Source: Mordavella massiliensis (GTDB taxonomy: Bacteria > Bacillota > Clostridia > Lachnospirales > Lachnospiraceae). From it: DNA of 64,000 nucleotides. The stretch spans positions 1-64,000 of the forward strand of contig NZ_JACJLV010000002.1 of assembly GCF_016902415.1 (NCBI RefSeq), in the 5' to 3' direction. Each line of letters begins with the position of its first letter. The stretch's first letter is position 1. The notes beneath the pieces are model-generated. The model was given only the letters and a program-made list of their open reading frames with translations. It had not been told where the DNA came from and made no database searches. A program made the position numbers and the translations under genes. Shown piece by piece: positions 3,576 through 59,628 of this stretch.

Positions 3576-4496
3576 ATGATTATCAGTGCAAGCAGGAGAA
3601 CGGACATTCCGGCCAGATATCCGGAATGGTTCATAAATCGTTTAAGAGAAGGGGAAGTGCTGGTGCAAAACCCCTACAATCGAAAAAAGATACAGCGCAT
3701 CACTCTTTCGCCGGATGTGGTGGACAGCATCGTATTCTGGAGCAAGAATCCAGAACCGATGCGCCCGTATCTGCGGGAAATTGACGAGATGGGATACCGG
3801 TACTATTTTCAGATGACCATCACAGATTATGGCCCCGATCTGGAGCCGGAAGCGCCGGATATCTCCGACGCGATGGCTACCTTCCTGCTGATGAGCGCAC
3901 AACTGGGGAAAGAGCGGATGGACTGGAGGTTCGATCCCATACTCCTGACAGAAAAATACACAAAAGATTATCATCTGGAGAAATTTGAAATGATGTGCGA
4001 GTGGCTTCATCGGGCCACAACCCGCTGCATCGTAAGTTTCGTAGATGCATACCGGAACAGCCCGTTCCAGGAACTGGAGCAGGAAGAAATCGAAGAACTG
4101 GCGGAAGGCCTGGGAAAAATCGCCGGGAAATATCAGCTCCCATTATACAGCTGTGCGGAAAAACTGGATCTGAAACGGTTCGGGATCCGCCACGGCGCCT
4201 GCATTGACGGGGAAAAGATCCGGAAAATCGCAGGCTATAAACTGGATGCCAGAAAAGATCCGGGCCAGCGCAAAGAATGCCGGTGCATAGAGAGCATAGA
4301 TATCGGTTCCTACGATACCTGCATCAACGGATGCGCTTACTGCTACGCAGTACACAGCCCGGCAAGCGCCAGAAAAAAATACGAACAACACGACCCGGCT
4401 TCGCCGTTATTGGTGGGCAGGCTGCGGGGCGACGAAACAATCACAGAAAAAGAAATACATTCGCTTAGAGATAATCAGCTGTCGCTGTTCGATTAA
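3576..4496 (+). CDS. DUF1848 family protein with C-terminal cysteine cluster
   Basis: This 306-residue protein starts with the family hallmark MIISASRRTDIPARYPEWF and ends in a cysteine-rich segment, with CRCIESIDIG followed by CINGCAYCYA near residues 235-265. That CxxxCxYC-like pattern resembles Fe-S/radical-SAM clusters but stands at the C-terminus rather than the N-terminus; the family's biochemical function is not known to me. The middle contains SIVFWSKNP, also typical of the family. The stop codon is followed at once by a 38-bp perfect palindrome. No neighbour gives a clear functional hint. Confidence 0.8.
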   Translation: MIISASRRTDIPARYPEWFINRLREGEVLVQNPYNRKKIQRITLSPDVVDSIVFWSKNPEPMRPYLREIDEMGYRYYFQMTITDYGPDLEPEAPDISDAMATFLLMSAQLGKERMDWRFDPILLTEKYTKDYHLEKFEMMCEWLHRATTRCIVSFVDAYRNSPFQELEQEEIEELAEGLGKIAGKYQLPLYSCAEKLDLKRFGIRHGACIDGEKIRKIAGYKLDARKDPGQRKECRCIESIDIGSYDTCINGCAYCYAVHSPASARKKYEQHDPASPLLVGRLRGDETITEKEIHSLRDNQLSLFD

Positions 4497-4534
4497 TGGG
4501 GGACGGGGGATTTCCGGAAATCCCCCGTCCCCCA
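4497..4534. repeat. Palindrome A1 (perfect, 38 bp)
   Basis: TGGGGGACGGGGGATTTCC is followed directly by its exact reverse complement. It begins on the base after the DUF1848 stop codon. There is no U-tract, so it is not a standard terminator. It is a member of the dispersed family A (see 4885, 5553 and 19375). Confidence 0.9.
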
Positions 4535-4541
4535 TTTGCAT

Positions 4542-4884: not shown

Positions 4885-4922
4885 TTGGGGACGGGGGATT
4901 TTCGAAAATCCCCCGTCCCCAA
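4885..4922. repeat. Palindrome A2 (perfect, 38 bp)
   Basis: TTGGGGACGGGGGATTTTC is followed by its exact reverse complement. It starts on the base after the acylphosphatase stop, and its last two bases lead into the AAAGGAGG ribosome site of the TetR gene. Confidence 0.9.
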
Positions 4923-5552: not shown

Positions 5553-5590
5553 TTGGGGACGGGGGATTTCTGGAAATCCCCCGTCCCCAA
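5553..5590. repeat. Palindrome A3 (38 bp, one central mismatch)
   Basis: TTGGGGACGGGGGATTTCT pairs with the following arm except at the central T/G. It runs directly into the AAAGGAGG ribosome site of nrdG. Confidence 0.9.
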
Positions 5591-19374: not shown

Positions 19375-19416
19375 GATCGGGGACGGGGGATTTTCAGAAA
19401 TCCCCCGTCCCCGATC
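19375..19416. repeat. Palindrome A4 (42 bp)
   Basis: GATCGGGGACGGGGGATTT has a matching right arm ending CCCCGATC, with a short TCAG centre. The ends differ from copies A1-A3, but still pair. Confidence 0.88.
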
Positions 19417-25250: not shown

Positions 25251-25305
25251 AAATGGAAAAGGGGACGTAGACCTTTGCAAAAGGTCTACGTCCCCTTTTC
25301 CATTT
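25251..25305. repeat. Palindrome B1 (55 bp)
   Basis: The left arm AAATGGAAAAGGGGACGTAG continues ACCTTT and pairs over 26 bases around a TGCA-type loop. It starts 7 bases after the nifJ stop and may also act as its terminator, since CCCCTTTTCC follows the stem core. Confidence 0.9.
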
Positions 25306-25334: not shown

Positions 25335-25387
25335 AATGGAAAACGAGACGTAGCCCTTTGCAAAAGGGCTACGTCTCGTTTGCCATT
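25335..25387. repeat. Palindrome B2 (53 bp)
   Basis: AATGGAAAACGAGACGTAGC continues CCTTT and pairs with the right arm with a single mismatch. It lies 29 bases after B1 and differs from it at three positions, each with the matching change on the opposite arm. Confidence 0.9.
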
Positions 25388-32387: not shown

Positions 32388-32444
32388 GGGGACGTAGACC
32401 TTTTGCACTTTACCCTGTCCCCTTTTGCAAATGACTACGTCCCC
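32388..32444. repeat. Palindrome B3 (rearranged family-B copy)
   Basis: It begins GGGGACGTAGACCTTTTGCA, then carries CTTTACCCTGTCCCC where the loop would be, then TTTTGCAAATGACTACGTCCCC-like closing sequence with two arm changes. CAGGG at the left also pairs with CCCTG inside. It ends 15 bases before era. Confidence 0.8.
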
Positions 32445-41422: not shown

Positions 41423-41467
41423 CAATTTGGGACGTAGACCTTTTGCAAAGGTCTACGTCCCAAATTG
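41423..41467. repeat. Palindrome B4 (45 bp, left of the RAYT gene)
   Basis: Perfect 21-base arms with the core GGGACGTAGACCTTT enclose the loop TGC, flanked by CAATTT/AAATTG. It is 72 bases before the transposase gene. Confidence 0.92.
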
Positions 41468-41471
41468 AAAA

Positions 41472-41510
41472 TCAGGGTGTACCCAAATGACATTTACCCT
41501 GTACCTGAAT
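41472..41510. repeat. Motif C pair left of the RAYT gene
   Basis: TCAGGGTGTACCC and CATTTACCCTGTACC form an imperfect palindrome around AAATGACATTT, with outer TCAGG/CCTGA pairing. Confidence 0.65.
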
Positions 41511-41539
41511 GGAGTTCAGCATCCGAAAGGAGGAGCTGA

Positions 41540-42307
41540 ATGCCAACAAAAAGAAGACAAAAAAGTTTTACAGATTTTTACCATGTTATCGTTAAGGGAA
41601 TCAATAAAGAGAAAATCTATAATCAGCAAAGAGAAAAGATTTATTTCAAAAAAATCATTCTAAAATATCTAAAGAAATATGACGTAGAAATTTACGCATA
41701 TTGTATCATGTCAAATCACGCACATCTGATTATCAAAGCTGAACTCCAGGTTTTATCATTATTTATGGCAGTCGTTTTGGCCGAGTATGCGAATTATTAC
41801 AATTACAAGCATTACAGAAATGGCCATGTATTTCAAAACAGATTTATTAGTGAATGCATTGAAACAGATGCATACTATTGGAATTGTATGCGGTATATCC
41901 ATCTGAATCCTGTAAAGGCGGGAATGGTAAGGCGTCCGGAGCGGTACAAATACAGCAGCATGGCTGAATACATGCTGGAAATGCCCGGGATCATCCATTC
42001 CAATGCAATAAAAAAATATACAAGTACTTTTACAGAATATGAAGAGTTCGAAAAATTTCACGGGGTCAGAGACGTACAGGTCTTTGCGGATATAAAAGAA
42101 GAAATGATGGCAAAGCAGAAAGATGCGGCATTACTGATCGCTGAAGAAATCTGTGAGGAGCGGAATCTCATGACGCTCCTCCAGGTATTTGAGGAAAGCG
42201 AACTTCAGGACTCGTATATCTCGCGCCTAGTAAAAACACTAAAAATCTCAAAAAAGATTGCAAAGAAACTCTGCAATACATTGATGAATGAACTGCAGAA
42301 CAAGTAG
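41540..42307 (+). CDS. REP-associated-type tyrosine (HUH, Y1) transposase (RAYT/TnpA-REP)
   Basis: This 255-residue single-copy transposase-like protein of the IS200/Y1 superfamily resembles the RAYT branch, which mobilises REP palindromes in other bacteria. The HUH motif is in MSNHAHLII (H60, H62). Candidate catalytic Tyr residues lie in AEYANYYNYKHYRNGHVFQN (83-87), followed by the family block RYIHLNPVKAGMV (118-130). A lysine-rich C-terminal part (about 200-250) has a helical SRLVKTLKISKKIAKKL segment suited to DNA binding. GGAGGAGC precedes the ATG. There is no TnpB, no passenger gene, and no target duplication that I can see. It lies between palindromes B4 and B5 and motif-C copies, as expected for a RAYT at home among its repeats. 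Confidence 0.88.
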   Translation: MPTKRRQKSFTDFYHVIVKGINKEKIYNQQREKIYFKKIILKYLKKYDVEIYAYCIMSNHAHLIIKAELQVLSLFMAVVLAEYANYYNYKHYRNGHVFQNRFISECIETDAYYWNCMRYIHLNPVKAGMVRRPERYKYSSMAEYMLEMPGIIHSNAIKKYTSTFTEYEEFEKFHGVRDVQVFADIKEEMMAKQKDAALLIAEEICEERNLMTLLQVFEESELQDSYISRLVKTLKISKKIAKKLCNTLMNELQNK

Positions 42308-42326
42308 TATGAAAAAGAAAATGAGT

Positions 42327-42365
42327 CGGGTACACCCTGATTTACAAAAAGGTACAGGGTAAAAT
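42327..42365. repeat. Motif C pair right of the RAYT gene
   Basis: GGGTACACCCTGA is the complement of the left C1 motif, and GGTACAGGGTAAAATG is the complement of the left C2 motif, so both motifs recur inverted relative to the left side. Confidence 0.65.
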
Positions 42366-42372
42366 GCAAATT

Positions 42373-42406
42373 GGGACGTAGACCTTTTGCAAAAGTCTAC
42401 GTCTCC
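42373..42406. repeat. Palindrome B5 (slightly degenerate, right of the RAYT gene)
   Basis: GGGACGTAGACCTTTTGC pairs with AAAAGTCTACGTCTCC with one missing and one changed base. It precedes the M18 peptidase gene. Confidence 0.85.
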
Positions 42407-58714: not shown

Positions 58715-59542
58715 ATGAAGCTGGATATGCATTGTCACATTAAAGAAGGCTCTCCTGACAGCAAAGTATCACTGGACGAGTATATTACGAAGCTGAAGGA
58801 GCATGGATTTGACGGGATGCTGATCACGGATCACGACACCTATAAGGGCTACCGTCACTGGAAATATGATATGAAGGGAAAGGTCCATGAAGATTTTGTG
58901 GTTTTAAAAGGGATCGAGTACGATACCTGCGACGGAGGCCACATTATCTGCATTATGCCGGAAGGGGTGAAGATGCGCTTGCTGGAGCTTCGCGGGCTGC
59001 CGGTGGCGGCGCTGATCGATTTTGTGCACCGTCACGGCGGGATCCTTGGCCCGGCACATCCCTGCGGGGAGAAATATCTGAGCTTTACCAATACCAAGAA
59101 ATATTATCAGGCTCCGGAGATCATGAAACGGTTTGATTTTATTGAGGCATTTAACGCCTGCGAGCAGGAAGATTCCAATGCCTGCGCCATGAAACTGGCC
59201 AAAAAGTATAAGAAGCCGGGGATCGGCGGAAGCGATGCCCATAAGATCGAATGCGTTTCCATGGGATATACGATCCTGCCGGAGTATGTGACCTGCGAGA
59301 CAGAACTGATCTCACTGATCCGGCGGAAAGTGCCGATCGAGGCCGGAGGCACGTACTATGGCAAGACCACCCGGGAGAAAATGGGCAAGGCAGGAAAGCT
59401 TCTGACCTATTCCTTCTGGTTCTACAATAAGGGCGGAGAGCTGCTCCGCAGGAAAAAGCGCAAAGAAAAAGGCGAGGTGGAAAACCCGCCGTCGCCGATC
59501 GATCCGATCGAAATTCCGTATCTGCAGAAACATACGCGGTAG
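58715..59542 (+). CDS. PHP-domain metal-dependent phosphoesterase
   Basis: This 275-residue protein has a PHP fold. MKLDMHCHIKEGSPDS carries the first metal-binding His pair, LITDHDTYKGY the DHD motif, KGIEYDTCDGGHI a Glu, AHPCGEK another His and GGSDAHKIECVSM the final Asp/His. PHP proteins hydrolyse phosphate esters or nucleotides. The C-terminal 50 residues are basic and low in conservation (LLRRKKRKEKGEVENPP). AAAGGAGG lies ahead of the ATG at 58715; the frame back to 58694 contains that site. Palindrome B6 begins on the last base of its stop codon. Confidence 0.9.
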   Translation: MKLDMHCHIKEGSPDSKVSLDEYITKLKEHGFDGMLITDHDTYKGYRHWKYDMKGKVHEDFVVLKGIEYDTCDGGHIICIMPEGVKMRLLELRGLPVAALIDFVHRHGGILGPAHPCGEKYLSFTNTKKYYQAPEIMKRFDFIEAFNACEQEDSNACAMKLAKKYKKPGIGGSDAHKIECVSMGYTILPEYVTCETELISLIRRKVPIEAGGTYYGKTTREKMGKAGKLLTYSFWFYNKGGELLRRKKRKEKGEVENPPSPIDPIEIPYLQKHTR

Positions 59543-59588
59543 CAAATGGGGACGTAGACCTTTTGCAAAGGTCTACGTCCCCATTTGC
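59542..59588. repeat. Palindrome B6 (perfect, 47 bp)
   Basis: GCAAATGGGGACGTAGACCT continues TT and pairs perfectly across 22 bases around loop TGC. It overlaps the last base of the PHP stop codon and lies between that gene and convergent feoB. Confidence 0.93.
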
Positions 59589-59591
59589 ATT

Positions 59592-59624
59592 TTGCCGTGT
59601 ACCTAATCGGCATTCAGGGTGTAC
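59592..59624. repeat. Motif C copy next to B6
   Basis: GCCGTGTACCTAATCGGC can pair GCCG/CGGC, followed by TCAGGGTGTACC, the C1 motif seen beside the RAYT gene. Confidence 0.6.
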
Positions 59625-59628
59625 CGCG

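Follow-up and report, generated by a model that had tools for sequence, protein, structure and literature searches.

In the literature that we read for comparison, descriptions of palindromic REP repeats and their accompanying RAYT genes come mainly from Proteobacteria, Cyanobacteria and Bacteroidetes. RAYTs co-evolve with the REPs that flank them, and a search made in 2010 met no homologues in other major lineages (Nunvar, 2010; PMC2817692). In orthoswitches, orthologous RAYTs of sister species have different cognate REPs, and the old REPs stay and decay (Nunvar, 2013; PMC3686654). Two further kinds of system were distinguished by Di Nocera (2013; PMC3733652): the TIRYTs, named there, with GGGGWSAS repeats, and CGTC-tagged REPs, which have no dedicated transposase. 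A later classification treats TIRYT, group 1 and TnpA_REP subclass 2.1 as one, and reports that REP-like sequences were not found beside its genes (Quentin, 2018; PMC6006769). Assays of TnpA_REP published in 2021 (PMC8266576) showed cutting at CT dinucleotides, with GTAG guiding the choice of site. A search of papers outside subscription, weak in parts, returned no earlier description of a REP/RAYT system in Clostridia or Bacillota.

Here we describe a locus in the draft genome of Mordavella massiliensis (2.61 Mb; G000) which, we conclude with high confidence, is a REP/RAYT-type system of Lachnospiraceae, made up of a putative Y1 nuclease/strand-transferase and a composite repeat. That such an equivalent exists in this family was the original prediction, and it is supported by the association of gene and palindromes, by separation from IS200, and by a match to TnpA_REP in both sequence and fold. 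We keep to the label RAYT-type because an unpaired GT[AG]G foot is missing and an NCBIfam cut-off is narrowly missed. The locus lies in a stretch of 64,000 nucleotides, the whole of which we call the window, and was compared with two sister species of the same genus (G001 and G002) and with other Lachnospiraceae. Two 3-kb stretches of G002 (L022/L073 and L023/L075) are more than 99% identical to G000, other shared regions being about 78% identical; they reflect either recent transfer or assembly contamination.

A Single-Copy Y1 Transposase at a Fixed Locus

The gene, RAYT-B (41540-42307, plus strand), encodes a Y1/HUH REP-type tyrosine transposase of 255 residues with a Pfam Y1_Tnp domain. As predicted, it has an HUH motif at residues 60-62 (H60-A-H62) and a RYIHLNPVKAG block (residues 118-128), which includes Tyr119; H60, H62 and Y119 are invariant in 13 homologues. 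Its sole NCBIfam family match is REP_Tyr_transpos (NF047646), at 71.6 bits against an equivalog cut-off of 80 bits. By sequence, the best relative of solved structure for a 13-sequence profile is E. coli TnpA_REP (4er8; E 1.1e-4), which was solved bound to a REP hairpin, and the first Tyr of its YIYINP aligns with Tyr119. An AlphaFold2 model of RAYT-B (pLDDT 89) also retrieved 4er8 first (E 2.1e-7), with IS608 behind (E 8.1e-4). RAYT-B resembles E. coli TnpA_REP (rayT/yafM) in being a Y1/HUH protein without TnpB, in being encoded once and in its fold, but the two are only about 20% identical and RAYT-B has an extra C-terminal helical region, a helical bundle in the model. No HTH or DnaA_C domain was detected there by Pfam in any of the 13 homologues.

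The neighbors of RAYT-B are the genes for glycine C-acetyltransferase (kbl) and an M18 aminopeptidase, and the claim that neither TnpB nor a passenger gene accompanies it stands. Orthologues in the genus (68 and 64% identical) occupy the same kbl site, so that three species have one gene each at this position, and each orthologue is adjoined by the palindromes of its own species; a Dorea MAG has an orthologue at the kbl site too. Like RAYT/TnpA_REP genes, RAYT-B is therefore single-copy, vertically inherited and fixed in its locus.

A Composite Repeat with a Covarying Hairpin

RAYT-B is bracketed by inverted palindromes of one family, B, as RAYT/TnpA_REP genes are by inverted REPs. The predicted pair is present: the upstream copy (41423-41467) is a perfect palindrome of 45 bp, in which a 33-bp core (41429-41461) is extended by locus-specific arms, and the downstream copy (42373-42405) has an imperfect stem. 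Four further intergenic copies had been claimed and were all recovered, at 25251-25305 (26-bp perfect arms), beside it at 25335-25387 (a compensated stem, GTAGCCC/GGGCTAC), at 32388-32444 (degenerate, with a long loop) and at 59542-59588, whose orthologous copy in G001 has a core of the G001 type. Matches to the head of the core palindrome (GGGACGTAGACC...GGTCTACGTCCC), allowing at most two mismatches to GGGACGTAGACC, number 14 in the window where 3.2 are expected, and none of 100 shuffles reached 14. In the whole G000 genome a 29-bp version of the core occurs 58 times, 29 on each strand, and a reversed control pattern not once; its two congeners, which carry orthologous genes, contain 45 and 19.

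The palindromes had been described as near-perfect over 45-55 bp. What the copies share is the 33-bp core; the additional length consists of copy-specific arms, which nevertheless pair, over a mean of 6.7-6.9 bp as compared with 1.7-1.95 bp when arms from different copies are combined. As single strands, three perfect copies fold into hairpins of 21-26 bp (-23 to -30 kcal/mol), and the copy downstream of RAYT-B into a weaker one (-9.5). The inner stem covaries: among 26 variants from several genera, 94.5% of cells are paired and 7 of 14 pairs are changed on both sides, giving a score of 0.323 as against 0.088 when shuffled and at most 0.158 when slid. The ends, GGACGTA and TACGTCC, are invariant across the 26 variants, the head being without covariation; this invariance is partly built in, because the variants were picked by a pattern requiring those ends. 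Independent support for the head comes from the genes of the RAYT-B clade, which were found by protein similarity and adjoin GGACGTA palindromes. The GGGACG(TAG) head, proposed as a possible recognition element, is refined to an invariant GGACGTA; one sister species lacks the G of its TAG. Comparison of orthologous copies at L027/L124, L086/L123 and L088/L122 shows an asymmetric loop (TTTTGCAAA) in opposite orientations with respect to its flanks.

Each flank of RAYT-B carries, in inverted orientation, the 33-bp palindrome and then, towards the gene, two 22-bp units that we call C. Upstream these are 41462-41483 and 41484-41505, each with a TGTACC end (plus strand); downstream they occupy 42329-42372 (minus strand), and the C units of the 59.5-kb copy lie at 59582-59625 (plus strand). 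The paired C motifs noticed earlier are thus real: they are exact tandem 22-bp units adjoining most B copies genome-wide, and for this reason we regard them as part of the repeat and not of the gene alone. One to three units stand on one side of 43 of the 55 G000 copies examined. TGTACC boxes in tandem at exactly 22-bp spacing number 36, nearly all of them beside B copies, and those at other spacings three, as if by chance; where the junction is intact, the step from the last CGTCC​C of the palindrome to the first TGTACC keeps the 22-bp period. The three bases after GGTACA or GGGACA are nearly always GGG, CCC or a mixture of G and C (L003, L005 and L101, for example), and this trinucleotide differs between orthologous copies as if it had been flipped. 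Pairing between neighboring C units was considered and rejected, the trinucleotides being mostly GGG, CCC or CGG and not strictly complementary between neighbors. At L087, L098, L103, L019 and L092, 11-bp direct-repeat modules (TTCACATTTTG or TTTCCATTTTG) take the place of C units.

The B repeats can now be set against the described palindromes. They share with the GTAG REPs of E. coli an inverted pair bracketing the gene and dispersal in intergenic DNA. They differ in that the GGACGTA head lies inside the stem, in contrast to the unpaired GTAG foot of E. coli, in that the stem is perfect rather than bulged, and in the addition of 22-bp tandem units. An unpaired 5' GT[AG]G at the foot of the hairpin is absent; GTAG lies within the stem, and most G001 copies have GTAC. 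Like CGTC-tagged REPs, B repeats have CGTC at the end of the palindrome (CTACGTCCC), but in those REPs the tag is unpaired and at one end, the stem is 8-9 bp, a CCA tail follows and no dedicated transposase is present (PMC3733652), whereas B has a paired tag at either end and its copies bracket a transposase. We therefore rejected membership of that class, since B shows neither an unpaired end tag, a short stem and a CCA tail nor the absence of a transposase.

Another possibility is that the locus is a TIRYT (RAYT group 1, TnpA_REP subclass 2.1) in which the terminal inverted repeats became numerous; it would then belong to a named group and have an abundant repeat family. TIRYTs/TIRtrons too have GGGGWSAS-like inverted repeats near the gene, some with moderately abundant families, and the C units of G001 (GGGGACAC/GGGACAGG) fit the GGGGWSAS motif (PMC3733652). 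However, those of G000 have diverged to read GGTACA, and the Pfam searches found no HTH or DnaA_C domain of the TIRYT/subclass 2.1 kind in any of the 13 homologues, though the modeled C-terminal bundle is helical. Subclass 2.1, under the classification that merges it with TIRYT and group 1, was published without REP-like palindromes (PMC6006769), and RAYT-B is accompanied by tens of copies of a hairpin with a covarying stem; this comparison goes by published description. We rate this assignment at a little below an even chance. It is a question of subgroup, and is compatible with a REP/RAYT mechanism.

A Second Transposase and Its Palindromes

Only two Y1 genes occur in the G000 draft genome, and the IS200 model matches neither. 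The other, RAYT-A (G000:C71:14547-15308), is 41% identical to RAYT-B. Reading the DNA, we take its upstream neighbor to be a gene like proS and its downstream neighbor one like that for the CCA-adding enzyme. A second palindrome family, A (GGGACGGGGGATTT), has about 71 copies in the G000 genome, and in the window its palindromes (GGGGACGGGGGATTT...) lie at 4495-4536, 4885-4922, 5553-5590 and 19375-19416. Palindromes of the GGGGACGGGGGATTT type stand on both sides of RAYT-A in G000 and G001; in G002 a family-A palindrome lies upstream of RAYT-A, which is broken there by an in-frame stop. In the three species, family-A half-sites come to about 73, 47 and 48 per strand. Family A is apparently cognate to RAYT-A.

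Palindromes and Transposases across Lachnospiraceae

We counted GGGACGTA...TACGTCCC palindromes and sought relatives of RAYT-B in one genome from each of 299 Lachnospiraceae genera. At least two GGGACGTA palindromes were present in 8 of the 12 genomes with a RAYT-B relative of at least 190 bits and in 2 of the 287 others (p = 1.5e-11). The more cautious figure is that for any GGGACGTA palindrome, found in 14 of 66 genomes with any homologue and 4 of 233 without (p = 2.9e-7), because the 190-bit line was set after seeing the data; neither p value is a strict probability, since the genomes share ancestry. Similarly, a homologue is present in 9 of the 11 genomes with at least 10 GGGACGG palindromes. 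The 29-bp B core itself is absent from 58 other genomes. The palindromes are thus not equally common in relatives without the gene, an outcome in favor of the prediction.

The association has exceptions. G257, which is 82% complete, has 12 GGGACGTA copies and many palindromes of both kinds, and the gene was not detected in it. G217 has 14 GGGACGTA copies with only a relative from the RAYT-A clade and one weaker match; its stems are poorly paired (3.1 of 6 inner pairs, as against 4.7-6 in the other genomes compared), as expected of a family left without its enzyme. G061 has the gene and no exact GGGACGTA match, and there the gene is flanked by a AGGACGTAG palindrome.

In the tree (SH-aLRT support, quick search), palindrome types largely go with transposase clades. 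In the final, smaller version, the RAYT-B clade comprises 12 genes (support 99), all with GGACGTA palindromes, and the RAYT-A group comprises eight (support 94), of which six have GGGACGG-type palindromes, one has GGGACGTGG and one has none that was found nearby. Hespellia (L143), outside the RAYT-B clade, has GGGACGTAGC palindromes too. The IS200 transposases of relatives form a separate branch with 100% support, away from RAYT-B, and the IS200 model NF033573 has no match anywhere in the G000 genome, which bears out the predicted distinction from IS200. Other Y1 genes of Lachnospiraceae (L144, L148, L142, L038 and L236) have their own palindromes, headed GGGGAC or GGGGTC (GGGGACGTTC, GGGGACGTGTTCC, GGGGTCAGACCCC).

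Palindromes at Gene Ends

Gene context was assessed with a simple ORF caller in 3-kb stretches around the palindromes. The median distance to the stop codon of the gene ending towards the palindrome is 32 bp in G000 and 22 bp in G001, and few palindromes lie between divergent genes (4 of 55 and 1 of 44, respectively). A replication-strand bias of repeat orientation was considered and set aside: G000 has none (22 versus 21) and G001 a weak one (25 versus 10, p = 0.017). No clean empty sites for B copies were found; at the 25.25-kb site the sister genomes have other hairpins, an ordinary terminator-like hairpin in G001 and a family-A palindrome in G002, and at 19.4 kb family A in G000 corresponds to B in G001.

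This siting would also suit a different explanation, in which the host uses the palindromes as terminators or 3' mRNA stabilizers, kept alike by selection and ordinary recombination, and the transposase merely lies among them. The position shortly after stop codons, the rarity of copies between divergent genes, the exchange of one hairpin for another at 25.25 and 19.4 kb, and arms that are copy-specific beyond the core and yet pair are all in its favor. It gives no reason, however, for the palindromes to accompany the gene from genus to genus or to be of a separate type for each transposase clade, nor for the inverted bracketing of the gene or the conservation of the head and the 22-bp units outside the hairpin; we consider it improbable. 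Less probable still is a standard IS200/IS605 element accompanied by non-autonomous derivatives (MITEs): the Y1 domain and its catalytic fold, the bracketing inverted repeats and the gene-less dispersed copies would suit it, but the model search and the tree rule out assignment to that family, RAYT-B forming a separate branch, three species keep their one gene copy at the same syntenic locus, and the dispersed B repeats are single ends rather than two-ended deletions.

Species-Specific Cores at Shared Sites

Sixteen B copies of G000 lie at sites whose flanking genes match those of a G001 copy. At all 16 the G000 core has GTAG, and at all 16 the G001 core has GTAC with compensating partners. 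At 11 of these sites the 60 bp next to the core, on one side or both, match more closely than at any non-orthologous site, and at four this holds for both sides. At the L088/L122/L071 site three species have different cores and share a C unit on one side; two of them also share a TTCACATTTTG-like module on the other. The G001 copy downstream of the transposase gene is a hybrid, with GTAGACC in one arm and GTGTAC in the other.

Because each species has its own cores at 16 of 16 shared sites, and adjoining modules are conserved at the best-anchored of them, these alignments imply that the dispersed cores probably changed in place. The conserved adjoining modules make it less likely that separate insertions struck precisely these points each time. 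Possible routes are compensated point mutation at the individual sites, conversion of one copy by another, and replacement driven by the enzyme. An orthoswitch (Nunvar, 2013; PMC3686654) is similar in that orthologous transposases of sister species have different cognate repeats, but it predicts new copies at new sites with the old ones decaying, whereas here the shared sites hold the new core. We entertain, as somewhat less likely than not, that RAYT-B or a process dependent on it rewrites dispersed cores in place: after a shift of the recognized sequence in one species, from GTAG to GTAC plus compensating partner, older copies at conserved sites would have been turned into the new form rather than left to decay.

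Discussion

Overall, the REP/RAYT-type reading suggests the following model. RAYT-B would be a Y1 nuclease and strand-transferase of single-stranded DNA, resident between kbl and the aminopeptidase gene. Its substrate would be the composite repeat, in which the GGACGTA head and the hairpin with its covarying stem are usually joined by between one and three units of 22 bp, headed GGGACA or GGTACA. The protein may bind the folded hairpin on single-stranded DNA through the GGACGTA/GGGAC head; Tyr119 would then cut at the foot of the hairpin, and the repeat would be joined elsewhere. Copies would be tolerated at the 3' ends of genes, where the hairpin could serve as a terminator or mRNA end. RAYT-B, or recombination between copies, may also replace cores in place, which would preserve the similarity of copies in the same genome.

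A single Clostridia genome here carries two transposase/palindrome pairs. The RAYT group that is possibly nearest (2.1/group 1) has been said to lack REP palindromes, and here palindromes are present. As the palindrome differs naturally between close species, substrate specificity can be tested through in vitro exchanges of protein and hairpin, and the set of shared sites allows one to ask how dispersed repeats stay alike. If RAYT-B does rewrite the cores, then a domesticated transposase would be making a genome-wide hairpin family evolve in concert while leaving its copies where they are.
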